Positions 13,950 to 61,700 of a DNA stretch of 64,000 bases are shown piece by piece. Numbering within the stretch: position 1 is the first letter of the stretch; each line of letters begins with the position of its first letter. Source of the stretch: Biscogniauxia marginata (lineage: Eukaryota > Ascomycota > Sordariomycetes > Xylariales > Xylariaceae); assembly GCA_022695795.1 (NCBI GenBank), contig MU404181.1, positions 36,382 through 100,381 on the forward strand, in the 5' to 3' direction. The position numbers and the translations under genes were made by a program. The notes beneath the pieces were generated by a model. The model saw only the letters and a list, made by a program, of their open reading frames with translations, was not told the origin of the DNA and ran no database searches.

Positions 13950-13967
13950 TTTGTTGTTGTTGTTGTA
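13950..13967. repeat. Short TTG microsatellite
   Basis: About five TTG units lie just upstream of the start of the minus-strand gene, probably in its 5' untranslated region. Confidence 0.6.
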
Positions 13968-14203: not shown

Positions 14204-14208
14204 CCGGG

Positions 14209-16900: not shown

Positions 16901-16903
16901 GAT

Positions 16904-18213: not shown

Positions 18214-18218
18214 CTATG

Positions 18219-18985: not shown

Positions 18986-21900
18986 ATAACCAAGCCTGAA
19001 AATTTAACAAAGAAAGTACCATGTAAATACCTCCGTTTCTATAAATTATTTAAAAATAAAATAAAATAAAATTACTAAAATATAACTAATAAAATTATTA
19101 AATCCACTTTAAAAAAGGAAAACAATTAAAACTATTTTTAGTATATCTTATAAATTAAGAAAAATAAAAAGCATTATAAAAAGGAATATAAAAAAACCTT
19201 AATAAAGGATATATTCGAGAATTAAAATCCTTGTTAAGATACCTAATAATTATAATATTAAAGGTTAATAAAAACGGAAAATAACATATTAATAAAGAAA
19301 AAAATTTAGTATAATAACGAGTAATTAATTATTAACACTTTAATAAAGTAATAAAAAAACGAATATTTGTTACTACTAATAAAACTTATAAAAAGATAAA
19401 TTAATAAAGCTTAAATCTTTATAGCATTAAATCTTCGTAATAATTATTACATAATTAAAATGGCTAAAAGACACGAATAACATACTGCTTTTTAAACGGT
19501 ATATAAACATTATAAATATAAAGTTATATTATTTAAACTTATTAACGCACTCGCTATATTTTAATATATAATTATAATAGTTTTTTATAAGTTTCTAAAT
19601 AAATTTTTATTTATTTATTTAAATGATATATTAATTTACTTAAAAACAAAAAGGAGTATAAAGAACATATAAAATAAGTGTTAAAAGCCTTAAAAAAAGG
19701 AAATCTACTTATTTATTTGATTAAAAATAAATAGTATATTAGAAAACTAAATTACCTAAGTTTTATAATAAATCCAGGAAAAATCTACATTTAAAAGGGA
19801 AAAATAGCAGTAGTTAAAGATTAACTAAAACCCAAAAATGTTATAAATATATACGTATTTTTTGGCTTTATTAATTACGTTAAATAATTTATTTAAGATT
19901 TTAAGTAAATTGTTAAGTTATTAACGGAATTAATTATTTTAACGAAAATAAAAAAAGCTAAATCGGCTTTTTTATAACTAAAAAAGTTATAACTAAATTT
20001 CTAAATAAAAACAAGAAAAAACAACTAAGAATAAACGCCTTAAATTTCGCTATCGAAGCAGTTTTAAAACAACTAAAAAACAATAAAAAATGATACTTAG
20101 TCGCGTATTTATTTAAAGCACTATATAATGCTAAATTAAATTATTAAATTTATAATAAAGAATTATTAATAGTTATTAAAGTATTAAAGAAATAAAAACT
20201 ATAACTTAATAAAATTAAAGAACCTATTAATATTCATTTAAATTATAAGAACTTTATACGATTCATAATAACGTAAACGCTTAATTAAAAACATAAGCGC
20301 TAAATGATTTTCCTATTTAAGTTTAATTTTAAGATTTATTACATCAAAAAAAAAGAAAACATTTAAATAAATCTTTTTAATAAGAAAAGAAATTATAATT
20401 CGCAAGTTAATAAAAGAGATATTTAAATATTTAAACATTAAAGTAACAAATTAATATAAAAAACTAGAAATAACGTTTTAAAGAAAGTTATAATTAAAAG
20501 GAAAAACAATTATAGTTTTAATAAAAAACTAATAACGAACTTCTCTCGTATAAAGAAAAAATCTACGTATCGAAATAAGTATAAAACAAGTTTATTAAAG
20601 AATTCTATAAACACCCTTTATATAGTTACTAAAGAATCTTTAAAACGTTAAAATAGTTATAAAAAAGTTCGACTTTTTAGAAATAAAACAAATAGTTAAG
20701 AGAGTTATAAAACATTATAACGTTTATAATAAAACTAAAGCGTTACGACACAAACCATATAAATTATTATAACTAACTCAAATACTTGAAAAAGCATAAC
20801 ACATAATTACGTGAGATTTCGTAATGAAACTCCCTAAATTAAAAAACCCTACTATAAAAGTACTTTATAACAGTATATAGGTAATTATTAATAAACTTAC
20901 GAAGTATATTTACTTCTTATTATTTAACGAGTTAAGCATAGTAAAATAATTAGTTTTTAGTTTCTTAAAAAATATATTAATAAATATAAATTATTAAAAC
21001 ACATTATTTTAAATAAAAACAAGTTATTTACGTTAAAGTTTTAAACTAGCTTAATAAAACAAATAAAAGTTAAATAAAAGTTATTTATAGCATATTATTC
21101 CTAGTTAAACGAATAAATATAAAAATTAAACTAAATAATAAAATAATACCTTTAAAGCTATATTAACTAGGAAATAAACAACTAAATAAAATTATTATTA
21201 ATAACCCAAATAACTTATAATACTTTAATTAACGAAGATATAAAAATATCACTATATAAAGTAATATATAGTTAAAAAGCAGAAATCTAAAAATAACTAA
21301 TTAAACTTATAAAAGTATTAAAAGTCGAAACGAAAACCCCGAAAATAAAAGTACTATTCGAAAAAGTCTAAATAGTATAGCTACGATTATAAAAAGAGTT
21401 ATAATTTATTTAAAACAAAATAATAAAGTATTATAATAAAAAAAGAATTAAAAGACTAATTTTTAAAAGAAAAAACATAATTTACTTACTTCGCTAATAA
21501 TAAAGCGTGTTAATAAAAACACCTTAAATTAAAACGAAACGGCTTAGTAAAAAACTTAAGTTTAAAAAGTTAAAACTATATAAAATTAAAAAAATTATTT
21601 CAAAAGTTAATTATAAATTTTCTTTACTAAAAAGATTTAAAATATACTTAATATTCTATATTTTACTTTTAAAACCAACATTAAAAAATACTTCGTTAAA
21701 AGAACAATTAAAACTTAAAGAAAATCTTAATAAATACGAAGTTAAAAAGATATTAAATTTAAGAAAAGTTAATAATTAATTATAATATCTTATTAAATAA
21801 GAAAGCTACTTACTAAAAGAAAATATTTAGAAATCACTTAAGCATTTAAAAAACTTAATAAAAGAAATTAAAGACTTTTACCGTTAAAATCTAAATTAAT

Positions 21901-32771: not shown

Positions 32772-32869
32772 NNNNNNNNNNNNNNNNNNNNNNNNNNNNN
32801 NNNNNNNNNNNNNNNNNNNNNNNNNNNNNNNNNNNNNNNNNNNNNNNNNNNNNNNNNNNNNNNNNNNNN
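32772..32869. other. Assembly gap (98 N)
   Basis: A run of N within the minisatellite; the true array length is unknown. Confidence 1.
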
Positions 32870-35404: not shown

Positions 35405-38400
35405 AACACGAAAAAAAAAATTATATTTATAATAACGTCCCATAATAATTATAATATCTTAAAGTATATTATCTTTATTTAAGTTCCGAAAAAAGCAAAA
35501 AAGTAATTATTAAAAGTTATATATATTACACCTTAGTATTATGCGATATATATGACTTATTCGAAGCAGGTTTTAAAAAAAACGAAATCGAGGAAAAGTT
35601 GTAAGAATTATAAAAAAAATTACATTTTCCATAATAGCTCGAAAAATAAGTTAAGTATAATATTAATCTATTTAGCTCTATAAAAAAACACTTAATAAAA
35701 TAATAAATAAAAATACGTGCGACTAAATTAAGTTATAAATAAATCGTTAAAATATACTTTAAAAAAAAGAGAATTTCTAGAAATTTATATAAACTTATAA
35801 AGAAATATTAAGTTATTCTTAACAAATAAATTCGAAGATTATATCTTTTATTTAAAAATAATTTAAAACCTTAAAAGATTTCGAGTTAACAGAAAAATAG
35901 ACTTAAATTATAAAAAGGCCCTTAAAATTTTTTTTTTAATATATAAAGTTTTATATAAAAAATAAACCTCTCACCCCTTATTACATAAAAAGTAATTAAA
36001 AAGACTATTTAAACAACGATTACTAGAAATACACTCTTATAAAAACCTAAATATGAAAAAACATTCGAGTTATAACGACTTAAAAAAACCTAAAAAAGAA
36101 GAAATATAAAAAACTAAAAAATGGCAAAAGCTCTCGTTAATAAAACAACGAAAAGCCATAAATAACAAATCCTTATATAAATTTTAATTAAGACTTAATA
36201 ATATCATTATAACTAAAATTAAATATAATAAAAAGGAGTATAAAGCCTTTATAAACTTAAAAATAAATAAAAGTTATATTTCAATTAAAATAACTTAAAA
36301 AAACAAAATATTATAAGTATATAAACAAAATTTATATTAACTACGAAACTTTAAAAGATATATATCTAATTACGAAAATAACAAAATATTAAAAAAACAA
36401 TTCCTTTTTTAATAATTAACGTGCTTTATTAATACCTTGCGCATATTAGTACCCTACGCACTTTCCCCCACTTTTTTATATTAGAATTAGGATTTAATAA
36501 TTATAACGTATAGAATTAACCTAAACTACTTAGAATTTGATAAACCTAATATAATTATAGTATTTTAATAAGTACGCGCATTATGACTAGTCTCCCCGCA
36601 GGTACTATATCGTCGCCTAGAAAGCTGCCCCTCATTTTGCTTACCCCCTTTAGAGCGCTTATCGCGTCGAGCTTGCTCTTCTGCCTCCTTTTAAGCCAAA
36701 ACGTCTTGCGTATCCTTTATAGTAAGTGCCTCCCCTTAATAGACTCGAGTCTTTTTAGCCTTGCGGCGTTTATTAAATGCCTTATTTGCTGCTCGAAGTG
36801 TGCGCACCTCGGCTAATAAAAGCGTTATTTCATAAGCTAACATTTTAGTGCCCTTAGCTAACGCCGCTACCGTCTTAAAAATGGGGGTTAAAGAGCTTCT
36901 TTAATGACGTGTAATGCGACTTTTTATTAAGGTTAACTATAAAAGCGCATTAGTCGCATTATAAGGGGTTTGAGAGATTTAAGGGTTAGTATTAGTCAAG
37001 GGGGGTATATTAAGATTCGGAGTTTATAACCTTATATCAAGCTTTAAAATCACAGCTTACGGGTTAAAAGGCACTAAGCCAGCTCCGCGGAATCCAGCCT
37101 AGCTATTCTGAGCTATTATAAAGGCTAAATAAGCTGCTTTAAAGGCGAGGAAGAACTCGACCTTTGTAATATAATTAATATAAGCCTTAATAAAAGTCTT
37201 AATTTGTTAACTATATACCCATTTTAAAATATTAAAACACTTAACATTTAATAACTAGGTTAAATAAAAAGAATAAAAAGGTAAATAAAAAGTAATAATA
37301 TTATGTGCTTTATAATACTTTTAAAATTTCGTCGATTTGTGACTCTTATGCCTATTAAAGATAAGCATTTAATATAAACCTTTAATTTAAGTAAAAATAT
37401 ACTTATCGAAATATTTAAGTTATTTTAAGCTTATCTTATTATTTATTTAGTTATTACTAGTTAATTTAATTACTTAGTCGTGTGGAAAGCCGCTTTTAAT
37501 ATATTAACTTACAAAATAATTCTTCTTTTAAACCACTAAAAACGAAGAGACACTTTAACCTTTATTATTAATGCAAGTAATTGTTATCGCTTATTCTTAA
37601 TTGCTTAACTAAATTGCCTTATTTTTACTACGTTAATTTACGCGAGTTATAACCATTATCGAAGAGATTACACTTATTATAAAGCTTGTTTCGTCGAAGT
37701 TATAAAAATCGGAGTCTTAAATACCATATTTCGCCCGCATATTCTTAACTAGTCGAAACCACGCGCTAATTAGCTTTAAATCTTCGTATAAGGCTCTTTA
37801 AAAGTCATAAACGCGATTAAAACGCGTCTTTAACTCTAGTCGTCGTTATACGAATCGATATGCTTAATTCTTTTTAACGCGTAATGCCTCTCGAGATTCG
37901 AGTAAAAGATTTGTTATATCTTTAATACTAACGAGCCAAGATGTAAAACCTCGGGAATCTAAATCGAGTATATATTAAATAATCGTATTTTCTTTTCTTT
38001 TATTTAGTTTGAGGTTTAAGGGTAAACGTTTATTAAAAGAAGTGTAATTATTTATTTTAAGTCGGAACGTAAATTTAAGAACCTTATAAATTTTCGTAGC
38101 AAACCGACGACTTAGCTTTTTAAATAAACAAATAGCTTTAATAACTAAGATAATTTGTGCTTCCTAGGTTTAAATTTCCATTTATAGTTATTAAGAAAAT
38201 GCGTGTTAAAGTTCATAAGGTATAAAATAAAGGAAAGTGCGCAAGGTATTGATATGCGCAGGGTATTAGTAAAGCACGTTATTTAAAAACACCTTAAACA
38301 AGTTATTTTTAATATTATATATATATCAAGTCACGACATAATACTAAAAATAAATTAGCTTAAAAGAAATAATCCATAAATAAATTTCGAAATAAACACA

Positions 38401-41400
38401 CTTTATTAAAATTAAAATTAAAAAGAATTAATTATTACGAGTTACGAAATAAGTACCGTAAATAACTCTAGAAAAATAAATATAAAAACGAAACATATCG
38501 CTTATATAATTCGAGTAACTAAACTTAAAGATCTAACGAAGAAAGTATTACGCAAGTATTTTCGTTTCTATAAATTATTTAAAAATAAAATAAAAAAATA
38601 AAACAGCTAAAACTATTTTTAATATATCTTATAAATCAAGAAAAACAAAAAGCACTATAAAAAGGAATTTAAAAGAATCTTAATAAAAAATATATTTAAG
38701 AATTAAAGTCCTCGTTAAAATACCCGGCAATTATAATACTAAAAATTAATAAAAACGAAAAATAACATATTAATAAAAAAGGAAATCTAGTATAACGACG
38801 AGTAATTAATTATTAACACCTTAATAAAATAACAAAAAAGAATAAACACTTGTTACTACTAATAAAACTCATAAAAAACAAATTAATAAGGCCTAAATCT
38901 TTATAACACTAAACCTTCGTAATAATTATTACATAATTAAAATGGCTAAAAAACACGAATAATACACCGCCTTTTAAACGGTATATAAACATTATAAATA
39001 TAAAGTTATACTATTTAAACTTATTAACACACCCGTTATATTTTAATATATAATTATAACGGTCCTTCGTAAGTTTTTAAAGAAATTTATATTTGTTTAT
39101 TTAAACAATATATTAATTTACTTAAAAAGCGAAAAAAACATAAAAAACATAAAAAACAAATGTTAAAAGCCTTAAAGAAAGTAAACCTACTTATTTATTT
39201 AACTAAAAATAAATAACATATTAAAAAACTAAATTATTTAAAGTTTATAATAAGTTCAAAAAAATCCGTATTTAAAAAGGAAAAATAGTAATAATTAAGG
39301 ATTAACCAAAACTTAAAAGTGTTATAAACGTACGCGCATTTCTTAGCTTTATTAATTACGTTAAATAACTTATTTAAGATTTTAAACGAATCGTTAAACT
39401 ATTAATGAAACTAACTACCTTAATAAAAACAAAAAAAGCTTTTTATTTCACTAAAAAAACCAAATGGGCTTTTTAGTAACTAAAAGAAGTTATAACTAAT
39501 AAGGTTATATATAAACTTCTAAATGAAATTAAAAAGAAACAACTAAAAACAAACGCCTTAAATTTCGCCATTAAAGCAGTCTTAAAGCAACTAAAAAACA
39601 ATAAAAAATAATACTTAATCACGTACCTATTTAAAGCACTATATAATATTAAACTAAACTATTAAATTTATAACAAAAAACTATTAATAGTCATTAAAAC
39701 ATTAAAAAAATAAGAATTATAACTTAATAAAACCAAGGAACCTATTAATATCTATTTAAATTATAAGAACCTTACACGATTTATAACAATATAAACACTT
39801 AATCAAAAACATAAACGTTAAATAATTTTTTTATTTAAGTTTAATTTTAAAATTTATTACATTAAAGGAAAAAAAAACATCTAAATAAATCTTCTTAACA
39901 AAAAAAAACTATAAATCAAAAATCAACAAAAAAGATATTTAAATATTTAAATAATAAAATAATAAATTAATTATATTAACTTATATACGAATTAATATAA
40001 GAAACTAAAAATAACGTTTTAAAGAAAATTATAATTAAAAAGAAAAACAATTATAATCTTAACAAAGATTTAATAACAAACTTCTTTTATATAAAAAAAA
40101 GGTTTATATATCAAAACGAGTACAAGACAAATTCGTTAAAAAATTCCACGAATATCCTCTACACGGTTACTAAGAAATTTTCAAAACGATAAAATAACTC
40201 TAAAAAGAATTCGACTTTCTAGAAATACGATAAACAATTAAAAAAAATTATAAAGAATTATAACGTTTATAATAAAGCTAAAGCATTACGACATAAACCA
40301 TATAAATTATTATAATTAACTTAAATACCTAATAAAATATAACACATAATTATATAGGATTTTGTAATAAAACTTCTTAAATTAAAAGATTTTATTATAA
40401 AAGTACTTTATAATAACATATAAATAATTATTAATAAACTCACGAAATATACCTACTTTTTACTATTTAACGAATTAAGCATAATAAAATAACTAGTTTT
40501 TAATTTCTTAAAAAAATACGTTAATAAATATAAACTATTAAAACGTATTATTTCAAATAAAAACAAGTTATTTATAACGTATTATCCCTAAATAAACAAA
40601 TAAATAAAAAGATTAAACTAAATAATAAAACAATATTTAAAAAGCTATATTAACTAAGAAATAAATAACTAAGTAAAACTATTATTAATAACTTAAATAA
40701 CGTATAACACTTCGATTAACGAAAACATAAAAATATCACCATACGAAGTAATATACAATTAAAAAGCAGAAATCTAAAAATAACTAATTAAACTCACGAA
40801 AACACTAAAAATCAAAATAAAAGCCCCGAGAATAAAGGTATTATTTAAAAAAGTCCAGGCAGTATAACGACGACTATAAAAAGAATTACAATTTATTTAA
40901 AATAAAATAACAAAATATTATAACAAAAAAATTAAAGAATTAATTCTTAAAAAAACATAATTTACTTGCTCCGCTAACGACAAGGCATAATAACAAAAAC
41001 GCCTTAAATTAAAATAAAACAACCTAATAAAAAACTTAAATTTAAAAAGTTAAAACTATATAAAATCGAGAAAGTCATTTTAAATATTAATTATAAATTA
41101 AAACTACTAAAAAAATCTAAAATATATCTAGTTTTTTATATATCGTTATTAAAACTAATATTAAAAAACGCCTCATTAAAAACCCGGAATAAAATTAAAA
41201 AAAAATCAAATAAGTACGAAGTAAAAAAGATTTTAAACTTAAAAAAGATTAATAATTAATTATAATATTTAGTTAAATAAGAAAAATACTTATTAAAAAA
41301 TACATAAAAACTATTTAAACACTTAACAAACTTAAAAGACGCGTTTAATAAATTCTATTAACGAAACTTAAATTAGCTAAAAAGGCCTAAAATTTAAAAC

Positions 41401-42014
41401 CCTAGTTTAAAAAAGACAAGTTAAAAAAAGGGACGGCCTCGAAAGTAACCTTAGCTTATTTAGCTAAAAATTATTATTTAACTTAAAAACGTTTTTATTC
41501 CTTTTTTAAACGTTTTTACTTTTTTAACTCATTTAAGTTTTAAAAACCTCGTTATAACTTTTTTAAACCCTTTTTACAAAGAAAGTCACGTTGCCGACGT
41601 AACCTAAAAATGCGCGTAACAACTTTATTTATTTCGGATTAAAGTTTAAAAAGCGCTATCTCCGTTTAACGCTTTTAAAAAAATAAATGATCCTTTTTTA
41701 ATATTTAACCACTTAAAAAAATCCAAAAAATTTTTTATATCGTTATAAAAACGATTATGATAAACGTATTCGCTATATTTCTTTAATTTACTCTCGATAA
41801 TAATATATTTTAATTTTTAATCGAAGTAAAAAGAGTAAAACATAATATTAACATATATATTTAACTTATAAATACATTAAAAAAGTTTTTTACATTTAAA
41901 CTTCTAATTATCACGACGACGTTTAACTACTTAATTATTAAACATAATAAAAATAAAGAAAAAAAAAACTTATAAATTATCTTTAAAACAAAGATTTTAA
42001 AAAGAGAAAAATAA
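35405..42014 (+). pseudogene. Gypsy polymerase with chromodomain, RIP-degraded, split by the pogo element
   Basis: Resumes after the solo LTR and again at 38280. RT active site reads VYLNNILIY at about 39095-39121, with both catalytic Asp changed to Asn. Integrase reads NVYNKAKALRHKPYKLL near 40265-40315. The chromodomain is at about 41215-41350. A purine-rich tract (AAAGAGAAAAATAA) ends it just before the nonamer at 42012. Confidence 0.85.
36419..38279 (-). mobile_element. Fot1/pogo-like Tc1-mariner transposon, RIP-degraded
   Basis: 1,861 bp with inverted ends of about 48 bp beginning ACGTGCTTTATTAATACC, flanked by TA (36417-36418 and 38280-38281). The relative at ~59550 lacks it. On the minus strand the transposase remnant shows, from N to C, LLLESREALRVKKN with AYRFV and ELKTRFNRVYDF (the DNA-binding/helix-turn-helix part of the family), and near the C-terminus LRAANKAFNKRRKAKKTRV and the zinc knuckle STCGETSHNAR (36550-36590). 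These are hallmarks of fungal pogo/Fot1 transposases (DDE superfamily). Many stops; inactive. Confidence 0.93.
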
Positions 42015-42020
42015 TATTAC
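42012..42020 (+). other. Left border nonamer of the Rep array
   Basis: TAATATTAC at the Gypsy polypurine-tract/3'-LTR boundary; the LTR would begin at 42015. AG(T/C)CATGGTGTTGG of the inserted element follows at once. Uninterrupted relatives have TAATGTTAC here (22572-22580; reverse of 55711-55719). Confidence 0.9.
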
Positions 42021-43162
42021 AGTCATGGTGTTGGTGTTTAGCTTCTTTACACCAAAATCTGAGTGATCTCACCAATCAATCGCTTAGAATCAGGGGCCGA
42101 CCCGCTTATTTTGGAGTCCCCCCTCACCTTTTTTGGGGTGCACGTTTGTGCGTGGCGGTTAGGGCCGTTTTAGGCCGCTTGCGCGAATGCGGTGTTGATT
42201 TCTATTGATTGCGCGGAGACGGATTGTAGTCCTATTTACGGCACGGATGTGGCTTACGCGGTTTATGTTTCATCGGGGCTATTTAGTTTTATGGTGATAC
42301 GCTATATTTTCTTTGTGTAAATTGTTTACTTCCGAATGTGGTAATTTGTCTTTGTTTTTTTTACCCGGCCTGCTTACTTGTTAGTTGTTCTTTGCATATA
42401 TTATTTGTGCGGTGGGTCCGCGCAAACTCTTGCCGTTTATTTAGTTCCATATATCCGGCTTTTTAATATGTGATTATTAATTAATCGTTTTCGTATTAAT
42501 ACTTATTATATTCTCGGACATTATTAGTTCCCGAGCTTATTAATCTCACGCGTATATATATTTAGTGGTTACCCTTTTTCTTGTTTGTGGTTCAGTTATT
42601 ATCATTCTCGTTTTTGTTTATATAAATAAGTAGTATGCCTCATTTTGCATTTATTTTAACGTCCCGTTCTTCGTTTCCCACGTTGCTTACGTCATCTCTA
42701 TTTCTTCCTCTTGTTGGAGTGGCGGGGTTTAATAATTATTATTAGCGGTGCCAAGTTCCTTTTCGCGTTTATTGCACTGTCGCAGACCCCCCGTGTTTTA
42801 TTTGTGTTGCAGTCTTTATCCGGCCTAACTAGATATATATAAAGGCTTTTAACTAAGATATCGGCGTTTTAGGTATTGTCGTTATTCACGGCCTCGAGCG
42901 TTATACGGCCTAATTCGATACACGGGTTATTAACGCCGATATTACCGGCGTTATTAAGTTTGAGACTACGCGTTTTGTTAAGGGTAAGAATGACGTGTTA
43001 TATTAGGATCACCCTTTAATTACCCCTTTGAGAAACCGTTTGTATTATTCTATTGGCGTGGGTTAAATCGATATCGATCCTAATTTGTAGTTTTTAGGTA
43101 GTAATCTTTTAGGGTTTATCGATTTTTTAATAGAGGGTCTGTATTCTTGGTAGCTTACTTAA

Positions 43163-44334
43163 ATGCGTCGTCGCTATTTTTCTTAGTAGCGTCGTATTTG
43201 TCCGTCACCGCGACTGGCAACCCCGGCTTGCCTCGCTAGGTTAAGGCGTTCTCGTTTCGTACCTCAATCTCCGACTACCCCTATTATTATTAACACGGCT
43301 AAGGTTTGGAGGCGGTAATGCTTTACGAATTTGATTGGGGCCGACGGCGTCATTTCCGACTTAATAACGCTAAGCGAAACTTCGTTTGGTATGTACAATT
43401 ATTAACCTGGCGTCGGAAGAATAACAAGGTGAAGGTGGTTAAGGATATTAACGGTGCTTTTATTAATTATAATATATATATTAAGGATAACGATATAAGA
43501 TTCTTATTACTTAAAACTAATTCTTTTACGAGTATTTGTCGTGATAATAACGAGGTTTTTTTTCGAGGCTTAAATGTCTCGATAAAACTTTGTATGTCGA
43601 GGTTTTATAGTATGCGTGTTTTGGCTTGATGAAGCACTACGCCGCGGACTTATCCTGTTTTTAACGTATTTAAAGTTAATAATTGGCGTGTTATAAAGGT
43701 AGCTAGTACTAGGTTTTTAGGTGCGGGGTTTAGTCGAGTCGGGAATATGTTTATTAGAATTGGTTCGTTTGCGGTTATAGCGAGGTTTCTTCCTTTTTCG
43801 GAAGATAATACTCGGCCTTTTTATTTTCGTTTTATAAATAAGAAGTAACGGCTTAATATTATTTTAAATTAGTATTATTATTTTCGCGTTGGGTTTTAAT
43901 TATAGTTTTTTCTTTTTTCTGCTTAGTTACTTATTAATCGAGTTATAAAGGCTTATAATAGTGAAGCGAATAAGTTTTATCGAATTAAGAAGGAGAATAT
44001 TATAAAATATAATCTTCATGTTATGGTGTTAATTTACGTACCTTTTTTTATTGCTGAAAAGTCTATTCATAGTGGGGTAAATAGTGTTGCGGCTAAGATG
44101 GAAAGGATGAATATAAATAAGGAGTTTGGACCTTCGAAGCGAAAGGCGGATAAGGAGATTTCGGATAGTAAGAATAAAAGGCCTAAGCGTAAGCGCATGG
44201 CTACCTTTACTTTTCGGTTTAGAATGCGACTTTTATCTAGGATTTCGGAGATTACCGGCGGTTTAATTAGTGATGACCCTGGTGTTACTCTTCCCGCTTT
44301 AAAGGTTCGAGATTTATTTACTTCCATTTATTAG
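43163..44334 (+). pseudogene. Arg-rich plus-strand gene of the Rep element, copy 1
   Basis: A possible start at 43163 reads MRRRYFS, two stops, then RRICPSPRLATPA and LARLRRSRF, an Arg-rich basic N-terminus. A frame change near 43300 leads to RNFVWYVQLLTWRRKNNKVK and, after more stops, to a bipartite basic stretch (KRKADKEISDSKNKRPKRKR, residues about 40-59 of the segment starting at 44023) and a final segment ending at TAG 44332-44334. The position matches that of the virion-sense capsid gene in ambisense ssDNA circles, and an Arg-rich start is common in their capsids, but I cannot assign the family from sequence. It may instead encode an accessory DNA-binding protein. An additional frame upstream (about 42850-43160) is also protein-like. 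Confidence 0.55.
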
Positions 44335-45023
44335 GTTTAAAAAAATGTTATGTTTATAAATAAAACTGGCACTAGGGAATAACCGCTTTTTTATAGCATT
44401 TTTTTTAATAAAAATAATAATTAATTTTTAGAGTTTTATATTTTTAATCTATTTAATGAAATTTCTATTCTTAATCTTTTATGCTTCGAAGCTATTATTA
44501 GCTTTTACCTCCTTAATGAATTGGTTAAGGGCCTTCGTTTAATTATTTAAAGTGCGGGGTTCTTCTTATTCAATAAAAAGTAGAGATTTAATCTCCACGA
44601 ATATACAGTTTCCCTCTAACCATCTCACGTTTATTCCAGGGTAATCCCTAGGATCCTGGTTAAAGATATATATACATAATAAGGCCTAGTTTATAAAACT
44701 TGCGAGACGCATGTATTTGTTTGTTACTAAAAAAGCGACTTAACATTCCAGTATTTACTTATAAAACTGGTTAAGCCCCTTATTATTTAAGGGGATGTTA
44801 TTTACGACGATGTAGTTAACGTTCTTGTTTATTAATGCGGCGTTTTATACCCCTGCTATGTAACAGTGGGGGCCGAGAGATCGGGCTTATATCGTCTTGA
44901 AAAGGCGGGTTTCTCTATATATATATAATGTACGGAGTTATTCTAATAAATATTAGTGTTATACTTTTTATGAAACCGCGGGTGGGTCTTTACCGATTCG
45001 CCAAAACGTATCTTTCTAAATGT

Positions 45024-45330
45024 TGTATGTAACCCCCCCCCTATAAGGGGGGAGCCCCCCCGAGAAATAAGGGTAAGGGGGGGACCTAAAATAGGGGGAA
45101 AAGTTATATAAATTATTGTAGAATAGACGTTTATATAAGGCTAGAAACCCTTAGGCAAACACTTAGCAAGCAAAAAGAACTTCCTATTCCGGGCTAAAGC
45201 GCCCTCGAGGGGGGGGGTAATTGTCTACGGAAGTGCCGAGGAGACTTATAGCGTTTACTTTATATCGGGGGGTGCAGGGGGGGGGGCCCCCCCAAGGCAC
45301 GAGGGTGGGGTACCCCTGAAACCCCCTAAA
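45024..45330. other. G/C-homopolymer tracts inside Rep, copy 1
   Basis: Several runs of 7-10 C or G with hairpin-forming pairs (for example CCCCCCCCCC-TATAA-GGGGGG, and a run of G directly followed by C7 near 45282-45294). This is a sharp contrast with the AT-rich surroundings and is kept in copy 2 (49648-49945). It may be an intron or a structured insert; runs of G or C contain few CpA targets for RIP. Confidence 0.7.
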
Positions 45331-46338
45331 ACGCCTAGTAGGCTTGCGAGTCCTTATAATCTATATATAATTACCCCTCGCCGACGGGCAAGATAATTAC
45401 GAAAAGTGTAATGTCGAAAAGTGAAAAGGTACTTACTCGGTTTGTTAAAAAGATTTTCCTCTTTTTACTCCCGGAGTTTTTTCGGCAAGTCCTAAATTCC
45501 GTCGAGATTCGGTGAAATGTATTCCTGGATTGTGGGCCTCCACTTTTAATCCGCATATGAGCTTATCACGGTGAAGTGCAGGATTAAATCCCGCGGGGTA
45601 CATTTTTCGAATCTCTTGAAGAATTCCTCTTTTATCTGGAGGGTGGGGGCTTTCGACTAGAAATCTGCTTTGATTTCTTTCTAGTATTTACGTAGTTGCG
45701 TTATGTTTCTACCGATATGCACAGACCCTTTCTTATATAGATATTTCTAGGTAATAGTTTTATTTTTAGTAAAACCGATATTTAGGTAAAAACGCTTAAT
45801 GTCGAAGTGGCGGGCGTTACGAATCTGCTTTTTTTTAAACCATTTGCCGAGTACGTAGTAGTAAAGTATGTTGTTTTTGTGCTGTTCACGGCAAGCGTAG
45901 AAGTGTTAAAATTTAAAGGCTTTAATTTCCTTTAGGAATTCCTTTAGTGAGAGGGTGCATTTTGGGTATATAAGGAAAACGGATTTCGCGTTGAGTTTAA
46001 ATCGACCTAGTTTGAGAGGGTTTTGGAAGTCGATCTCTGGAGATCGATTCCGCTGGGCTTCGATGGAGGCTTCGCGGGAGGTCGTTCCCGCTATTGATAC
46101 ACGTCGGGATAGTAATAGGGTTATTGGTACGACTACGCCCTCTGCAGGATAGCTACGCATAAACAGGGATAAGGAAGGAGAGGTGTCACTACGGTGGCGA
46201 GGGCCTTCTAAGCCTAAAATTAGGCTCGAAAAACGTCTGTTGAGGAGTTCTTGTCTGTGCACCCAGTTGGATACGCTATTAAGGCTAGACGGTGTGCTAA
46301 TGTCGGGAACCACGAAGTCCACTAGTGAACCCGGTAAA

Positions 46339-46374
46339 CCGTCGCGGGAAGGGGGGCTTAAATCCCCGCGACGG
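46339..46374. other. 10-bp hairpin near the Rep start
   Basis: CCGTCGCGGG and CCCGCGACGG around a 16-nt spacer that itself contains GGGGGG. It lies in the N-terminal Rep coding part. The right arm is mutated in copy 2 (~50954-50989). Confidence 0.5.
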
Positions 46375-46605
46375 TCTTTCTCTCTGCTCTTTAGTTTAAA
46401 GAGTTGAGTTAGGCCCATTCGTACTGGGGAAGCGTGTAATTAGTAGATAGTAAAGCGCATTGTTAAATAATGTGATCACTGGGACGGTAATTGCTACCTA
46501 AACGAAGTATATAAAGGTGTGTATGGTAATTAGTAGTGTTTAATGATGCTTTGGTATTTGTGAAGTATTCGCTGTGGGATTTGTTTTTTTCTTTATACTT
46601 TTTCT

Positions 46606-46648
46606 CAACACCATGGCGAATACTTTTAATGTTACAGCCATGGTGTTG
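46606..46648. promoter_or_regulatory. Origin-like stem-loop at the unit junction
   Basis: Perfect 12-bp stem CAACACCATGGC / GCCATGGTGTTG with a 19-nt loop that contains TAATGTTAC (46627-46635). Geminivirus and genomovirus origins have the same form: a stem with TAATATTAC-like loop, nicked TAATATT/AC by Rep. The hairpin is complete only where two units meet; each outer border has one arm. GGTGTTGGTGTT overlaps the right arm (46642-46653) and may be a Rep-binding iteron. Confidence 0.85.
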
Positions 46649-47777
46649 GTGTTTAGCTTCTCTACACCAAAATCTGAGTGATCTCACCAATCAATCGCTT
46701 AGAATCAGGGGCCGACCCGCTTATTTTAGAGTCCCCCCCCACCTTTTTTAGGGTGCACGTTTATGCGTGGCGGTTAGGGCCGTCTCGGGCCGCTTACGTA
46801 AATACGGTGTTAATTTCTATTGATTACGCGGAAATAAACTATAGTCTTATTTATAACACGAATATGGCTTACGCGATTTATGTTTTATCGAGGTTATTTA
46901 GTTTTATAATAATACGTTATACTTTCTTTATATAGATTATTTACTTTTAAATATGGTAATTTGTCCTTGTTTTTTTTACTTGGTTTATTTACTTGTTAAT
47001 TATTCCTTATATATATTGTTTATGTGGTAAGTTTACGCAAACTCCTGCTGTTTATTTAGTTCTATATATCTAGCCTTTTAATATGTAATTATTAATTAAT
47101 CGTTTTCGTATTAACACTTACTATGTCTTTAGATATTATTAGTTCTCGAGCTTATTAGTTCCACGCGTATATATATTTAATGGTTACCTTTTTTCTTGTT
47201 TATAGTTTAGCCATCACTATTCTCGTTTTTATTTATATAAATAAGTAGTATGCCCCATTTTACATCTGTTTTAACGTCCCGTTTTTCGTCTCTCACGTTG
47301 CTTACGTCATCTTTATCTCCTCCTCCTATTAAAGTAGCGGGGTTTAATGATTATTATTGGCGATACTAGGTTCCTTTTCGCGTTTATCGCACTATCGCAA
47401 ACCCCCCGTGTCTTACTTATGTTATAGCCTTTATTTGGCTTAACTAAATATATATAAAGGCTTTCGACCAAGATATCGGCGTTTTGGGTATTGTCGTTAT
47501 TCACGGCCTCGAGCGTTATACGGCCCAATTCGATACACGGATTATCAGCGCCGATATTACCGGCGTTATTAAGTTTAAAACTACGCGTTTTATTAAGAGT
47601 AAAAATAATATGTTATATTGAAATTACCTCTTAATTACCCCTTTAAAAAACCGTTTATATTATTTTATTAACGTGGGTTAAACTAATATCGATTTTAATT
47701 TATAGTTTTTAAGTAGTAATTTTTTAGGGTTTATCGATTTTTTAATAGAGGGTCTATATTCTCGGCAGCTTATTTGG

Positions 47778-48949
47778 ATGCATCGTCGCTATTTTTCTTA
47801 GTAGCGTCGTATTTATTCGCTACCGCGACTAGCAACCCCGGCTCGCCCCGCTAGGTTAAGGCGTTCTTGTTTCGTACCTCAATTTCCGACCACTCTTATT
47901 ATTATTAACGCGGCTAAGGTTTAGAGACAGTAATGCCTTATGGATTTGGTTGAGGCCGACGGCGTCATTTCCGACCCAATAATACTAGGCGAAACTTTGC
48001 TTAGTATATACGATTATTAACCTGGCGTTAAAAAAATAACAAAGTAAAGGTAATTAAAAATATTAACGGTGTTTTTATTAGTTATAATGTATATATTAAG
48101 AATAACGATATAAAATTCTTATTACTTAAAACTAATTTTCTTACGAGTATTCGTCGTGATAATAACAAGGTTTTTTTTTAAGGCTTAAATATCTCGATAA
48201 AACTTTATATATTAAGGTTTTATAATATGCGTGTTTTAGCTTAGTAAAGCATTACGCCGCGGACTTATCTTATCTTTAACGTGTTTAAGGTTAATAATTA
48301 ACGTGTTACGAAGGTAGCTAATACTAGGTTTTTAGGTGCGGGGTTTGATTAAGTCGAGAATATATTTATTAAGATTAATTCGTTTATGGCTACGGCGGGG
48401 TTTCTTCCTTTTTCGAAAGATAATACTTGGCCTTTTTATTTTCGTTTTATAAATAAAAAGTAATAACTTAATATTATTTTAAATCGGTATTATTATTTTC
48501 GTGTTAGGTTTTAATTATAGTTTTTTCTTTTTTCTATTTAGTTATTTATTAATCGAGTTATAAAAGCTCGTGATAACAAAGTAGATAAATTTTATTAAAT
48601 TAGGAAGAAGAGTATTATAAAATATAATTTTTACGTTATGGTATTGATTTATGTATTTTTTTTTATTATTAAAAAGTCTATTCGTGGTGGGGTAGATAGT
48701 GTTATAGCTAAGATGGAAAGGATGGATATAGATGAGGAGTCTGGACCTTCGAAATAGAAGGCGGATAAGGAGATTTCGGATAGTGAGGATAAAAGGCTTA
48801 AGCGTAAACGCATAGCTACTTTTATTTTTCGGTTTAAAATACGACTTTTATCTAGGATTTTAAAGATTACTAGTGGTTTAATTAATAATAACCTTGGTAT
48901 TACTCTTCCTGTTTTAAAGGTTTAGGATTTATCTACTTTCGTTTATTAG
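47778..48949 (+). pseudogene. Arg-rich plus-strand gene of the Rep element, copy 2
   Basis: Copy 2 equivalent of 43163-44334 with more stops (for example TGG->TAG at many Trp sites). The basic stretch near 48745-48810 is still visible in part (GADKEI-like DNA GGCGGATAAGGAGATTTCGG is conserved). Confidence 0.5.
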
Positions 48950-49070
48950 GTTTAAAAAAATGCTATGTTTGTAAATAAGATTAATACTAAAGAATAACCG
49001 CCTTTTTATAGCATTTTTTTTAATAAAGATAATAATTAATTTTTAAAGTTTTATATTTTTGATTTATTTA

Positions 49071-51033
49071 ATGAAATTTCTATTTTTAATTCTTTATACC
49101 TCGAAGCTGTTATTAATTTCTACCTTTTTAATAAATTGGTTAAAGGCCTTTGTTTAACTATTTAAGGTGCGGGGTTTTTCTCGTTTAATGAAAAGTAGAG
49201 ATTTAATTTCCACGAATATATAGTTTTTTTTTAATTATCTCACGTTTATTTTAAGGTAGTCCCTGGGATCCTGGTTAGAGATATATATATATAGTAAGGC
49301 CTAGTTTATAAAACTTGTAAGGCGTATGTATTTATTTGTTACTAAAAAAGCGACTTAATATTCTAGTATTTATTTATAAAACTAGTTAAACCCCTTGCTA
49401 TTTAAAGGGATGTTATTTACGACGATATAATCGATATTCTTGTTCATTAATGCGGCGTTTTATATCCCTGCTATGTAATAGTGGGGGCCGAGAGATCAGG
49501 CCTATATCGTTTTAAAAAGGCGGGTCTCTCCGTATATATATAATATGCGAGGTCGTTTTAATAAATGTTAGCGTTATACTTTTTATGAAACCGCGAGTAG
49601 GTCTTTATCGATTTGTTAAAACGTATTTTTTTAAATGTTATATATAACCCCTTCTTTATAGGGGGGGGGCCCCCTCGAGGAACGAGGGTGGGGGGGGGAC
49701 CTAGAATAGGGGGAAAGGTTATATAAATTATTGTGGAATAGATATTTATGTAAAGCTAGAAATCTTTAGGCGAATACTTGGTAAGTAAAAAGAACTTCTT
49801 ATTTCGGGTTAAAGCGCCCTCGAGGGGGGGGGTGATTATTTATGGAAGTGTTAAGGAGATTTATAGCGTTTATTTTGTGTCGGGGGGTGTAAGGAGGGGG
49901 GCCCCCCCGAGGTACGAGGGTGGGGTACCCTCGAAACCCCTTAAAACGCTTAGTAGGCTTATGAGTCCCTATAATTCGTGTATAATTACCCCTTGTTAAC
50001 GAGCAAGATAGTTACGAAAAGTATAATATCGAAAAGTAAAAAAGTACTTACTTAGTTTATTAAAAAGATTTTCTTTTTTCCATTTCCGGAGTTCTTTTAG
50101 TAGGTTCTAGATTTTGTTAAGGTTTAGTGAAATATATTCCCGAATTATAGGTCTTTATTTCTAGTTCGCATATAAGCTTATCGTGGTGAAGTGTAGAATT
50201 AAATCCCGCGGGGTATATTTTTCGAATCTCTTAAAGAATTTCTCTTTCGTTTAAAGGGTGGGGGCCTTTGACCAGAAATCTATTTTAACTTCTTTTTAAT
50301 ACTTACGTAGTTATGTTATGTTTTTATCGATATATATAAACCCCTTTTTATATAAATATTTCTAGGCGGTAATCCTATTTTTAGTAAAACTAATATTTAA
50401 GTAGAAACGCTTAATGTTGAAATAATAGGCGTTATAAATCTGCTTTTTTTTAAACCATTCGCCAAGTACGTAATAATAAGGTATATTATCTTTATATTAT
50501 TTACAGCAAGCGTAAAAGTATTAAAATTCGAAGACTTTAATTTTTTTTAAGAATTCCTTTAATAAGAAAATATATTTTAGGTATATAAAAAAAACGGATT
50601 TCGCGTTAAGTTTAAATTAACCTAGTTTAAGAGGGTTTTGAAAGTCGATCTTTAAAGATTAATTTCGCTAAGCTTTAATGAAGGCTTCGTAAGAGGTCGT
50701 TCTCGTTATTAATGCACGTCAAGATAGTAATAGGGTTATTAGTACGACTACGCTCTTTATAAGACGACTACGCACAAATAGAGATGGAGAAAGGGGGGTG
50801 TTATTATGGTAGCGAGGGCCTTTTAAGCCTAAAATTAGACTCGAAAAACGTTTATTAAGGAGTTCTTATTCGTGTACCTAGTTGGATATGTTATTAAGGC
50901 TAAACAGTGTGTTAATGTCGGGAACCACGAAGTCCATTAATAAACCCGGTAAACCGTCGCGGGAAGGGGGGCTTAAATCCCCGCGATAGTCTTCCTCTTC
51001 GCTCTCTAGTTCGAAGAGTTAAGTTGGGCCCAT
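49071..51033 (-). pseudogene. Rep-like gene, copy 2
   Basis: Equivalent of 46418-44456 shifted by 4,615. Motif I reads FFIYL near 50592-50578, and the motif II block is lost to stops. G/C runs are retained at 49648-49945. More heavily mutated than copy 1. Confidence 0.75.
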
Positions 51034-51241
51034 TTATACTAAGGAAGTATGTAATTAGTAAATAGTAGAACGTATTATTAAATAATGTGGTCACTGGGAC
51101 GGTAATTGCTGCTTAAACGAAGTATATAAAGGTGTATATAGTAATTAGTAGTGTTCGATGATGCTTTAGTATTTGTGAAGTATTCGCTGTGGGATTTGTT
51201 TTTTTCTTTATACTTTTTCTCAACACCATAGCGAATACTTT

Positions 51242-51250
51242 TAATGTTAC
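51242..51250 (+). other. Right border nonamer of the Rep array
   Basis: TAATGTTAC; the last two bases (AC) already belong to the continuing Gypsy LTR, which reads on as GAATTTAGC. Confidence 0.88.
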
Positions 51251-55716: not shown

Positions 55717-58700
55717 TTATATTTCTCTTTTAAATAGTTTTATCTTTAAAACTTTTTTTTGATAACCTTTCATTTTAATTATGTTATCCTATTATGTTAT
55801 TAAGAATGTGTAAATAGGTTTAAAGAAAAGGAATTCTTTTAAATATTAATACGAACTAGTCGCCGCCATCGATTAATTTAGATATATAATTATGCTTTGT
55901 ACTCGCTGTTTTAAGAAGGGCTTATTATGTAAGATGTTAAAGGACCGAAAAAAATGTTAGAATTATAGCGAAGTTAATATCACCTTTTATAACGGTAATT
56001 ACATTTCCTTAAAATCCCTTTAAAACATTTAAAAAAAAAACTTAAAATTAACTAAGAAAAACGGGTAGTCGTTTAACAACTTTAAAAACTATTAAGTAAA
56101 ATTACGTAATTAAATCGTTAATTTAAATGGTTACGTAAATGTGGGATTTAATTTATTTAACGCGAGCTTTAAAACTTAAATAAATTAGAGGATTAAGAAC
56201 GTATTAAAGAGAAATAAAAACGTTTTTAAGTTAAATAATAATTTTTAACTAAATAAGTTAAAGTTACTTTTAAGGTTATCCCTTTTTTTGACTAGTTATA
56301 ATTAAATTACGACTTAGGTTTTTAGATCTTCTTAGGCGATCTAGGTTTTAGCGGTAAAAGTTCTTAAGCTTAACCGTTAAATTCCTTAAATTTTTAAGTG
56401 GTTTTTAAATGTTCTTTTTAAGTAAGTAACCTTCTTACTTAACAAAATACTATAATTAACCTTTAACTCGTTTTAAATTTAATATCTTTTTTATTTTATA
56501 CTTATTAAGGTTTTTTTTTAATTTTAATTGGTTTTTTAATAAAGCGTTTTTTAGTGTTAATTTTAAGAATAAAACATGGAATATAAGATATATTTTGGAT
56601 CTTTTTAGTAGTGTTAACTTGTAATTAATTTTCGAAATAACTTTTTTAATTCTATATAGTTTTAACTTCTTAAATTTAAGTTTTTCGTTAAGTCGTTTTG
56701 TTTTAATTTAGGGTGTTTTTAATGTTACGCCTTGTTATTAACGAAATAAATAAACTATGTCTTTTTTTTTTAAGAATTAGTCCCTTAATTCTTTTTTTAT
56801 TATAGTATTTTATTATTTTATCTTAAATGAATTATAATTCTTTTTATAACCGTTACTATATTATTTAAACCTTTTTAGATAGTACTTTTACTCTTAGGGC
56901 TTTTATTTCGACTCTTGGTGTTTTCGTAAGTTTAATTAGTTATTTTTAAACTTCCGTTTTCTATTTATACACTACTTCGTATAGTGATATCTTTATATCT
57001 TTATTAATTAAAGTATTATATATTATTTAGGCTATTAATAACAATTTTACTTAGTTATTTATTTCTTAGTTAACATAGCTTTTTAAATACTATTTTATTA
57101 TTTAGTTCAATTTTTTTGTTTATTTGTTTATTTAGGGATAATACATTATAAACAACTTTTATTTAACTCTTATTTGTTTTATTAGGTTTATTTAAAATTT
57201 TAAAGTAAATAACTTATCTTTATTTAAAACAATACGTTTTAGTAATCCATATTTATTAACGTATTTTTTTAGGAAATTAAAAATTAGTTATTTTGTTATG
57301 TTTAACTCGTTAAATGGTAAAAAGTAAGTATATTTCGTGAGTTTATTAATAATTACTTATATGTTGTTATAAGGTACTTTTATAATAGGATTTTTTAACT
57401 TAGGGAGTTTTACTACGAAATCCCATGTAATTATATATTACGCTTTATTAGGTATTTGAGTTAGTTATAATAGTTTATATAGTTTATATTATAATGCTTT
57501 AGCTTTATTATAAACGTTATAATTTTTTATAATTTTTTTAACTGTTTATCGCATCCCTAGAAAGTTGAATTTTTTTTAAAGTCGTTTTATTATCTTGAAA
57601 ACTCCTTAGTAACTATGTAGAAGATGTTTATAAAATTCTTTAACGAATTTGTTTTATATTCGTTTTAATACGTAAACCTTTTTTTTATACGAGAGAAGTT
57701 TGTTGCTAAATCCTTGTTAAAATTGTAATTATTTTTCTTTTTAATTGTAATTTTCTTTAAAACGTTATTTTTAGTTTCTTATATTAATTCGTATATAAGT
57801 TAATATAATTGATTTATCATTTTGTTGTTTAAATATCTAAATATTTCTTTTATTGATTTTTAACTTATAATCTCCTTTTTTACTAAGCAAGTCTATTTAA
57901 ACGTTTTTTTTTCTCTTAATATAATGGATTTTAAAATTAAACTTGAACAAGAAAATTATTTAATGTTTATACCTTTAATTAAACGTTTATGTTATTATAA
58001 ATTATGTAAGATTCTTGTGATTTAAATAAATATTAATAGGTTCTTTAGTTTTATTAAGCCATAATTCCCATTTTTTTAATGCTTTAATAACTATTAATAG
58101 TTTCTTATTATAGATTTAATAGTTTAATTTAACATTATATAGTGCTTTAAATAGGTATATAATTAAGTACTATTTTCTATTGTTTTCTAGTTACTTTAAA
58201 ACTGCTTTAATAGCGAAATTTAAAGTGTTTATCTTTAATCATTTCTTCTTATTTTCGTTTAAAAATTTATATATAACCTTACTAATTATAACTTTTTTTA
58301 GCTACTAAAAAGCTTATATAGCTTTTTTAATGAAATAAAAAGTTTTTCTTGTTTTCGCTAAGATAATTAATTCCGTTAATAATTTAGTAATTCGCTTAAA
58401 ATCTTAAATGAGTTATTTAATGTAGTTAATAAAGCTAAGAAATGTATATACGTTTATAATATTCCTAGGTTCTAGTTAATTCTTAATTGTTATTATCTTT
58501 CCTTTTTAAATATGGATTTTTTTTAGGTTTATTATAAACCCTAAATAATCTAGTTTTTTAATATGTTATTTACTTTTAGTTAAATAAATAAATAGGTTTA
58601 CCTTTTCTAGGGCTTTTAACACTTACTTTACATATTCCTTATATTCCTTCTCGCTTTTTAAGTAAATTAATATATCGTCTAAATAAATAAATACAAATTT

Positions 58701-61700
58701 ATCTAGAAATTTACGAAGGATTATTATGATTATATATTGAAATATAGCAAGTGTATTAATAAGTCTAAATAATATAACTTTGTACTTATAATATTTATAT
58801 ATCGTTTAAAAGGCGATATATTATTCATGTTTTTTAGTTATTTTAATTATATAATAGTTATTACGAAGGTTTAATGCTATAAAGATTTAAGCTTTATTAA
58901 TTTATCTTTTTATAAGTTTTATTAGTAATAACGAATATTTATTTTTTTTAGTTATTTTATTAAAGTATTAATAATTAATTACTCGTTTCCATATTAAATT
59001 TCCTTTTTTATTAACATGTTATTTCTTATTTTTATCGATTTTTGGTATTATAATTACCGGGTATCTTAATAAGGACTTTAATTTTTAAATATATTCTTTA
59101 TTAAAATCCTTTTAAATTCCTTTTTATAATACTTTTTGTTTTTCTTGATTTATAAGATATATTAAGAATAATTTTAATTATTTTCTTTCTTTAAAGTAAA
59201 TCTAGTGATCTTATTAGTTATATTTTAGTAATTCTTTTTTTGTTTTATTTTTAAACAATTTATAGAAACGGAGGTATTTGTGTGGTACTCTTTTCGTTAG
59301 ATTTTTAAACTTAGTCGCTCGAATTATATAAGTAATATATTTTATCTTTATATTCGTTTTTCTAGAGTTATTTACGGTATTTATTTTGTAACTTATAATA
59401 GTTAACTCTTTTTATTTTTAATCTTAATAAAGCGTGTTTATCTTAAAATTTATTTGTAGATTGTTTTTTTTAAGTTAATTTATTTTTAATATTATGTCGT
59501 GACTTAATATATATATAATATTAAAAATGACTTACTCGAGATATTCTTAAATGGTTACCGAGAAAGGGATTATTTTTCTTAGTATTTTACTATTCTCGTA
59601 ATTAAATATATATTTTTCGAAGTTTTATAATTAGTATAAACTTTATTTATATATTTATAATATTTTGTTTTTTAAGTTATCTTAGTTGAAATATAACTTT
59701 TATTTGTTTTTAAGTTTATAAAGGCTTTATACTCCTTTTTATTATATTTAACTTTAGTTATAATGGTATTATTAAGTCTTAACTAGACTTTATATAAGGA
59801 CTTGCTATTTATGGCTTCTCGCTGCTTTACTAGCAAGAGCCTTTGTCGTTTTTTAGTTTTTTACGTTTTTTCTTTTTTGGGTTTCTTTAAGTTGCTACGG
59901 CTTAGATATCTTTCCACTCTTAAGTTTTCATGGGAGCGTATTTTTAGTAATTATTATTTAAATAGTTTTTTTAATTACCTTTTACGTAGTAAGGGGTAAA
60001 AGGTTTATCCTTTATATAAAACCTCGCACATTAAAATTTCAATTCTTTTTCGAGGGCCTTTTTATAACCTAAATCTATTTTCTTGTTAACTCGAAATTTC
60101 TTAAGGTTTTAAATTATTTTCGAATAAAGGGTATAATCCTCGAATTTACTTGCTAAAAGTAACTTAATATTTCTTTATAAGTTTATATAGATTTCTAAAA
60201 ACTTTCCCTTTTTCTTAAAATATATCTTAACGATTTATTTATAACTTAGTTTAATCGTATGTATTTTTATTTATTATTTTATTAAGTATTTTCTTATGGA
60301 GCTAAATAGATTAATGTTATATTTATTTTATTTTTCGAGCTATTATAAAAAATGTAGTTCTTTTTATAATTCCTATAATTCTTCCTCGATTTCGTTTTTT
60401 TCGAAACTTGTTTTAAATAAATCGTGTATATCGCATAATACTAAAGTATAACATATATAACCCTTAATAATTACTTCGTGGCTTTTTTTAGAGCTTAAGT
60501 AAAAATAATATGCTTTAAAATAATATAGCTATCGTGAGACGTTATTATAAATATATATATATATATATATATTTTTTATGTTATTACTTTTTAGTTTTTA
60601 AGAATAATAACCGGTTTTATCTTTAAAACTTCTATATACTTAATAAGCGTCGTTAATATAAAAGCTTTAATATAACGATATATGTTCCTTTTCCGGTTGT
60701 TTTTTTATTTTTAGTTTTGTTTTAAGTTTTTTACTTAATAGCTTATTAGGCTAGTTAGTATTATTTAAGCTTTAATAAATATCGTAATTATTATTTATAT
60801 AAAACCTCCGGTTTAAGCTATTATATTAACTTTTTCCTTAATAAGTTTCGTATTTATTGTTATTATAATGGCTTTAATATAGTTTATTATGGTTTAACTT
60901 AATTTTTAAGTCGTATTCTAGTTTATAGGTATTATATTTATATGGTAGTTCGCTTTTATTATATCCTTATTTGACTTATTTTAGCGTGAAGTACTTTAAA
61001 TATAAGTAGTTATACTTTAAATAGTTTTTACGGTTAACTTAATAATATTTATATTTTTTATAAGGACCTTTTTATCTTTTTTTATTTTAATAGTAATAAT
61101 AATAAATATTTAGTTTATCTCTTTATTATTTTTAAAATGAACCTTTATTTTAGAGGTTTTTTTTTCGGGTTAAGAAATCCTTCTTGTTTTTAGTTTTTAT
61201 TTCTTGAGATTTCGGCATTTATTTTTATAATGTTTTTTCTTTTTATAGTTAAAATACTTAATAATTATTTTATTTTTTATTTTTTTTTGCTTTTTTTGAG
61301 CAGCGTTGATTTTAATAAAGTTTGATTTAGTTTTAATGCTTTTTTTTGTTTTAATACCACTTTTATGATTTCCTCCTTTTTATTATTCGCCGCTCTTTCG
61401 TTATACCGTTTTTTTCTTTTTAAGGTATTATTTAAAGTTTTCGTTATTAATAGTAATTGTTATTATAACGTAGTTATTAAACTTTTTTAGGTTTTTTTCT
61501 TTATATAAGCTTGTTTTATATAGTTTATTCTTTATATAGTTTTTTAGTTTTTAATAAAATAAATAATATAAGCTCTTAATAAGTAATTATAACTAACTTG
61601 CGAGTTTCTTAAACTTAATAGCGTAATTTAAAGCCTTTTTATTTTATCGTAGTTTATGAAGTTTAGCTTCGGCTTGTTATTTGAGGATTAAGTTGCTAAA

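Follow-up and report, generated by a model that had tools for sequence, protein, structure and literature searches.

Many eukaryotic genomes carry Rep genes left behind by circular single-stranded DNA (ssDNA) viruses. Geminivirus Reps nick at TAATATT^AC, and a spliced Rep occurs in some members of the Geminiviridae and Genomoviridae. Helitrons insert between A and T; to our knowledge, neither a nonanucleotide target nor a Rep of the circular Rep-encoding ssDNA (CRESS) type is a Helitron feature. TAATATT^AC is given as the virion-strand origin sequence in PMC7758297, and a geminivirus-like transposon with 42 Rep genes or remnants, 37-bp terminal inverted repeats, two transposase open reading frames and no obvious target duplication is reported from Tuber melanosporum (Liu et al. 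2011, PMC3198968). According to the latter survey, excision and invasion may be the work of integrated Rep-like proteins, and no integrase activity had been identified for circular ssDNA viruses (PMC3198968). Replitrons, reported from green algae and non-seed plants, show duplications of 2–8 bp and short direct terminal repeats (5–11 bp), and their endonuclease is a distant relative of that of Helitrons (PMC10741241). Here, we describe a repeated element of the fungus Biscogniauxia marginata, present as a tandem pair of units in a 64,000-nucleotide stretch of contig MU404181.1 (assembly GCA_022695795.1; hereafter, the window). The element is probably a rolling-circle mobile element or resident provirus based on a geminivirus/genomovirus-type Rep, its circle opened at the origin nick and joined to TAATRTT^AC (R, A or G) in host DNA.

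The element combines features of several of these systems. Like the Tuber element it has a geminivirus-type Rep in a fungal repeat family and no obvious duplication, but it lacks the 37-bp terminal inverted repeats (only an offset 12-bp hairpin arm is seen), no transposase was found in the short pieces scanned, and its ends are origin halves at a defined target (PMC3198968). With the Geminiviridae and Genomoviridae it shares the Rep catalytic domain, a TAATATTAC-like hairpin loop with TAATRTT^AC, and an ambisense gene order; it differs from them in being an integrated repeat family of 4,615 bp units, and Gemini_coat gave no match to it, in a search run without a positive control. A geminivirus-like assembly of 4.6 kb is described from Camellia (PMC7758297), so size alone is no argument against a virus. 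Replitrons are likewise eukaryotic transposons with an HUH endonuclease, but the Biscogniauxia element shows no duplication (each of the 11 paralogues read has one site) and has a geminivirus-type Rep. Helitrons share HUH-based rolling-circle transposition without duplication (PMC10741241), whereas our element inserts at the longer, specific target TAATRTT^AC. Bacterial pCRESS also places viral-like Reps on site-specifically integrated elements (PMC6668415); here, however, the genome is fungal and the target resembles the origin sequence itself. No earlier description of a TAATATTAC-linked transposon or integration in fungi was found in the searchable literature, which does not extend to subscription papers and preprints. 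While geminivirus-like transposons of fungi have been described before (PMC3198968), the ends and the target reported here are new as far as the literature searched goes.

The two units, 42019–46633 and 46634–51248, lie head-to-tail with a direct-repeat spacing of 4,615 bp. BLAST pairs 42012–46635 with 46627–51250 at 84.4% identity over 4,624 columns, the two spans being equal, and over the 4,615 bp the units differ by 721 transitions, with no transversions and no indels. The original prediction, made from the letters of the window, had proposed two exactly equal head-to-tail units; lengths and junctions are borne out to the base, and the ends at 42019, 46633/46634 and 51248 are also borne out by reading the copies end by end. 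The unit is ambisense, with Rep on one strand and genes without a known family on the other.

An origin-like hairpin, also predicted, does span the unit junction: the inverted repeat is perfect over 12 bp around a 19-nt loop, its DNA fold has a z score of −4.44, and none of 200 shuffled sequences folds as well. In single copies, the two hairpin arms stand at opposite ends of the unit. Compared with the window arms, transversions are absent from the 5' arm in 27 of 28 ends, nine of them exact matches, and from the 3' arm in all 24, three of them exact; 10–12 of 12 positions pair (Watson-Crick or G-T) in 18 of 18 both-ended units, the two window units being counted apart. The last seven bases of the element (n = 24) are TAATGTT (11), TAATATT (11), TAATAAT (1) or TAAAACT (1). 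Each end of the unit is, then, one half of an origin hairpin enclosing a target-like sequence, and a unit opened at the base nicked by a geminivirus Rep would have just these ends.

A search of the genome (45.3 Mb in 229 contigs, to which the C-numbers refer) revealed many further copies. The genome-wide search scored the best candidates only, and all copy counts are lower bounds; the 74 matching rows were grouped by us into 35 insertions or fragments. An outer end could be read in at least 29 insertions: a left host flank is present in 27 of them, and the other two, C29:408788 and C69, have the right end only. Both outer ends are present in 21 of the 35 loci (the window array, 16 single-piece copies and four piece pairs taken as interrupted insertions), while six have neither end; the latter match in pieces at about 66–86% identity, and hence are diverged. 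The tandem form is seen in the window only. Among the next 10 places in the genome-wide list, nine span unit bases 1–4615 and eight are within 3 bp of the unit length, the exceptions being C9, whose match stops at base 4572, and C33, which deviates in length (4,533 bp). The search of the rest of the genome, suggested with the original prediction, thus finds ends elsewhere that coincide with 42019/46633.

An end was counted as read if its alignment came within 20 bases, and a few ends are thus extrapolated. The 27 left host flanks terminate in TAATATT (17), TAATGTT (5), TAATAAT (2), TAATTTT (1), TAACTTT (1) or TAAAATT (1), and the 23 right host flanks begin with AC (16), AT (6) or TT (1). As background, TAATRTT occurs at 760 of 387,686 positions (0.196%) in the same loci. 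A chance origin is not a candidate, given a heptamer this infrequent and the lack of any transversion over 4,615 bp.

Uninterrupted relatives of the flanks show the target before insertion. When the outer flanks of the window insertion (300 and 143 bases) are joined without the element, 25 uninterrupted places match across the junction; the 11 best-scoring of them read TAATATT^AC (6), TAATATT^AT (2), TAGTATT^AC (2) and TAGTGTT^AC (1). For the C87 copy (16164–20777), all three window paralogues are gap-free at the junction, and their sites (TAACATT^AC, CAACGCT^GC and TAACGTT^GC) depart from TAATATT^AC by transitions. Paralogues of one C24 copy read TAACTTT^AC (two matches, L045), TAACTTA^AC (L021) and TAATATT^AC (L027, its own flank region reversed). 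Since uninterrupted paralogues hold a single site, the target pre-existed, and no base was gained or lost at the sites read. Elsewhere, the C33 flanks give matches of 67–77%, one of which (71%, C176) spans the junction well, with no site read; weak spanning alignments at C184 and C172 (66–70%, one of them a locus against itself) were left unused. At C37 (TAATTTT), C105 and C184 (both TAATAAT) and C26 (TAAAATT), the left flank is variant while the right end is still TAATGTT or TAATATT. That these variants are not mirrored on the right argues against a duplication and places the break at or beside the T^A step; together with the lone site held by each of the 11 paralogues read, it led us to reject a target site duplication.

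Some insertions share a target. The C9 copy and the window insertion occupy the identical point of one host repeat, and the C34 and C2 copies a common point in a second repeat, an uninterrupted window copy of which reads TAATGTT^ACGAATT. In each of these four left flanks (27 were read), the 12 bases preceding the site include 11 or 12 purines. With 92% identity across 37 bases and 78% across 210, the right flank of the window insertion resembles the start of a long terminal repeat (LTR)-like element that is nested in the copy on C4. By their appearance, some targets could be junctions between a polypurine tract and an LTR.

The Rep itself was the second part of the original prediction, and its rolling-circle endonuclease is confirmed: PF00799, the geminivirus Rep catalytic domain, has its best match in unit 1 (45723–46001, E = 3.9e-8, above the curated cut-off). 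The profile matches the genome in six places, all above the cut-off, with two to five stops each, and all six lie within element copies; none of 14 control genomes has a match. Stop-free Rep pieces taken alone match the expected parts of PF00799 weakly (E = 0.016 and 0.0044); at an E of 1 or less, matches come from 3 of the 18 motif-I pieces and from 1 of the 14 pieces of the following block. A profile built from the 18 motif-I pieces and searched against PDB picked out six sequences at this limit, each of them named as a Rep or replication-associated protein (E = 0.023–0.3); the same search with the next block and with the helicase-like block picked no Rep. We take FLIYPKC and YLYKKG to be HUH motifs I and III.

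The predicted superfamily 3 (SF3) helicase signature stays a candidate: motif order and codon-position bias speak for it, and profile confirmation was not obtained. RETRLFKTI, NYIVVNNIPL and CIYIFNQDPRD presumably correspond to Walker A, Walker B and motif C, although the usual glycine ahead of the Walker A lysine is not seen in the helicase-like pieces read. PF08283 matched nowhere in the search, and hence is no test of a helicase; PF00910 gave 34 matches at E up to 1, none of them within an element copy, and matched 14 of 14 controls, as an unspecific profile does. By coordinate arithmetic, skipping the 494-bp gap between the two Rep blocks brings both into one frame, and in ten other aligned copies the gap ends GTAAGT/TTAG are kept or differ mostly by transitions; the stretch is, from these signals, a probable Rep intron. 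Within it, at 45032–45310, runs of G and C form inverted repeats, and similar runs occur in pieces of other copies.

The coding signal was gauged from transversions by codon position, in counts whose cells are not independent (positions 1/2/3). The Rep blocks gave 31/26/79 and 23/22/103, the N-terminal part of Rep 14/23/48, and virion-sense frames A, B and C gave 60/15/97, 33/23/107 and 18/11/59 (C over 42660–43150). The probable intron (44960–45425) had no codon-position bias (24/28/27, p = 0.84), while 42100–42650, which is without a long frame, also gave 99/71/159. When variable sites only are counted, 42100–42650 drops to 53/40/49, the intron gives 17/10/18, the helicase block 23/22/49, the first Rep block 27/20/38 and its N-terminal part 6/8/12, and frames A, B and C give 20/12/34, 16/10/30 and 13/10/24. 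Coding thus has good support in the helicase block, frame A and frame B, and weaker support elsewhere.

The original prediction also had a convergent second gene. Its outline holds, but the plus strand carries at least two coding frames. Three pieces of frame C (one from unit 2) have no Pfam match, and frame A has no match in Pfam, NCBIfam or PDB. A frame A profile found one weak relative among 8,000 candidates scored (P0001, 49 aa on a 744-bp contig, E = 3.4e-4), a look-alike that may be a sign of relatives elsewhere. A virion-sense intron at 43845–43926 (GT..AG) was considered and dropped because, by coordinate arithmetic, it does not put frames A and B into register. Table 1 lists the features of the array.

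Table 1. Positions of the tandem element, its genes and its host target in the window
Feature	Position	Strand	Description
Left half of host target	42012..42018	+	TAATATT; in 11/11 uninterrupted paralogues, transition variants included
Unit 1	42019..46633	+	4,615 bp; start ACAGTCATGG, end TTTAATGTT
Hairpin half, outer left end	42022..42033	+	partner at the unit's other end
Frame C	42626..43315	+	virion-sense, stops inside, no known family
Frame A	43303..43845	+	virion-sense; open pieces of 108 aa and 71 aa; no known family
Frame B	43927..44331	+	virion-sense; 135-aa open piece, basic (KRKADKEISDSKNKRPKRKR)
Rep second coding block	44480..44942	-	SF3-helicase-like order RETRLFKTI, NYIVVNNIPL, CIYIFNQDPRD; stops inside
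Probable Rep intron	44943..45436	-	494 bp; in unit 1 bounded by GTAAGT and TTAG; contains GC-rich inverted repeats
Rep first coding block	45437..46439	-	presumed HUH motif I FLIYPKC, motif II region, FDIKRFYLNI, presumed motif III YLYKKG; stops inside
Origin-like hairpin, unit junction	46606..46648	+	12-bp arms 46606-46617 / 46637-46648, 19-nt loop with TTTAATGTT^ACA
Unit 2	46634..51248	+	4,615 bp; 0 transversions and 0 indels relative to unit 1
Hairpin half, outer right end	51221..51232	+	opposite half of hairpin
Right half of host target	51249..51250	+	AC

The copies have diverged in a characteristic way. Unit 1, unit 2 and the C80 copy show no transversions among them; the other eight of 11 copies compared, chosen as near full length, have 1, 1, 2, 8, 8, 13, 39 and 56 transversions relative to unit 1. 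Set against unit 1, 40 sources together show 21,627 transitions and 1,460 transversions. Cytosines are changed most often before A (217 of 550, 39.5%), with 219 of 968 changed in CT, 169 of 892 in CG and 116 of 879 in CC. Divergence almost only by transitions, with a CA bias, is the pattern of repeat-induced point mutation (RIP), which by itself points to a filamentous ascomycete as the most likely host, and it lets each copy be ordered against RIP. Because the divergence is almost all transitions, several copies were identical or nearly so at the time of spread; units 1 and 2 were most likely identical when formed, with RIP acting afterwards. The original prediction took the dimer to be left by a rolling-circle intermediate. 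The tandem stands, but two routes to it are indistinguishable: each insertion leaves TAATRTT^AC on both sides, which makes a second insertion beside the first as good a source as a two-unit product, and the array may have come from either. With one tandem among 29 insertions, a dimer is not the usual form.

These observations fit a mechanism in which (i) Rep would nick the origin of a circular or tandem form at TAATRTT^AC, (ii) rolling-circle replication would displace a single-stranded unit, (iii) Rep would cut the identical sequence in host DNA and join the unit ends there, giving an insertion open exactly at the nick, (iv) both new junctions would restore the site, making tandem arrays possible, and (v) the host would later inactivate the copies by RIP. 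The proposal of an integrated ambisense replicon, or of a transposon using Rep, is supported by the Rep profile match, the copies with common ends and the host target TAATRTT^AC. Opinion is evenly balanced on the stronger claim that the geminivirus-type Rep acts as both replicase and site-specific integrase, the host sites entered by its rolling-circle product being matches to the nick sequence of its own origin and lying, in some cases, where LTR-type repeats end. Transposon and integrating virus are both candidate identities for the element; if the virion-sense frames encode a capsid, it would be an integrating CRESS-DNA virus and not a transposon.

Passive endogenization is the alternative that survives best, and we consider it unlikely. 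Host repair would, in this case, have captured episomal circles of a CRESS-DNA virus through short homologies that surround the nick. Circle and target do have 7–9 bp in common, Rep nicking would leave free ends exactly at that site, PMC7758297 describes the endogenization of viruses without an integrase as passive, and one or both ends are missing in 14 of the 35 loci. Broken circles should, however, open at many points, whereas 21 of the 35 loci keep both outer ends at one base; even among the 14 incomplete loci, eight keep one end at that common base and the six endless ones are diverged, and nested insertions and contig ends account for some of the losses. We give distinctly less credence to a cut-and-paste DNA transposon with a 7-bp target duplication (TAATATT) and Rep as cargo: TAAT[A/G]TT does stand at both outer ends of the window insertion, but the four left variants described above are unmirrored on the right, no transposase family matched the pieces scanned (which are short), and the sole symmetry of the ends lies in a 12-bp hairpin arm, set back by 3 bases at one end and by 16 at the other. 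That segmental duplication of host sequence or misassembly made both units is hardly credible, for equal length and head-to-tail order would suit it but the unit occurs singly at other loci with identical ends, and one sequence assembled twice is ruled out by the 721 differences between the units.

Several points weigh against a Rep-driven mobile element or resident provirus. No circular form or transposition has been seen, no unbroken Rep frame was found in the copies read, and the helicase has no profile support (Pfam on pieces, PF08283, PF00910 and PDB). A 177-aa Rep piece and the 135-aa piece of frame B had no homologue among ~5.8 billion proteins (79 and 13 candidates, respectively), nor did two element pieces in IMG/VR. 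In addition to the 14 loci with missing ends, five left flanks (of 27) and one right flank (of 23) depart from the motif, C155 deviating at both ends, with that end extrapolated. For the C89 copy, three weak alignments (70–77%) do not keep the whole site. At C34, no match to the flanks crosses the junction: all 38 other left-flank matches break off where the element is inserted, and the repeat does not carry on into the right flank, which may reflect loss or rearrangement there.

One family of one genome carries the base-level footprint to be expected if Rep does integrate the element: nick ends, a nick-sequence target and preserved empty sites. Such integration would link CRESS-DNA viruses, plasmids and rolling-circle transposons through one reaction.

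A few further observations concern the surroundings. Element copies on C87, C24, C4 and C69 (L024–L027, L033, L034, L038, L039) are interrupted by nested repeats with ends TGTGACGAACCTCC or GTTACGAACC versus GGAGGTTCGT; a few bases are doubled at the break in some cases, and by their look these are LTR-type insertions. In the window, a repeat of ~250 bp at 886–1128 recurs in at least 15 further places, in both orientations and at roughly 70–92% identity. A second repeat family of ~3 kb (~80% identity) lies at 18999–21896, 38281–41544 and 56168–59552, near the left flank of the Rep element. The window also contains a run of 98 N (32772–32869) and, at 9001–18000, an island of ~39–50% GC, presumably genes, compared with ~20–30% GC in much of the window.

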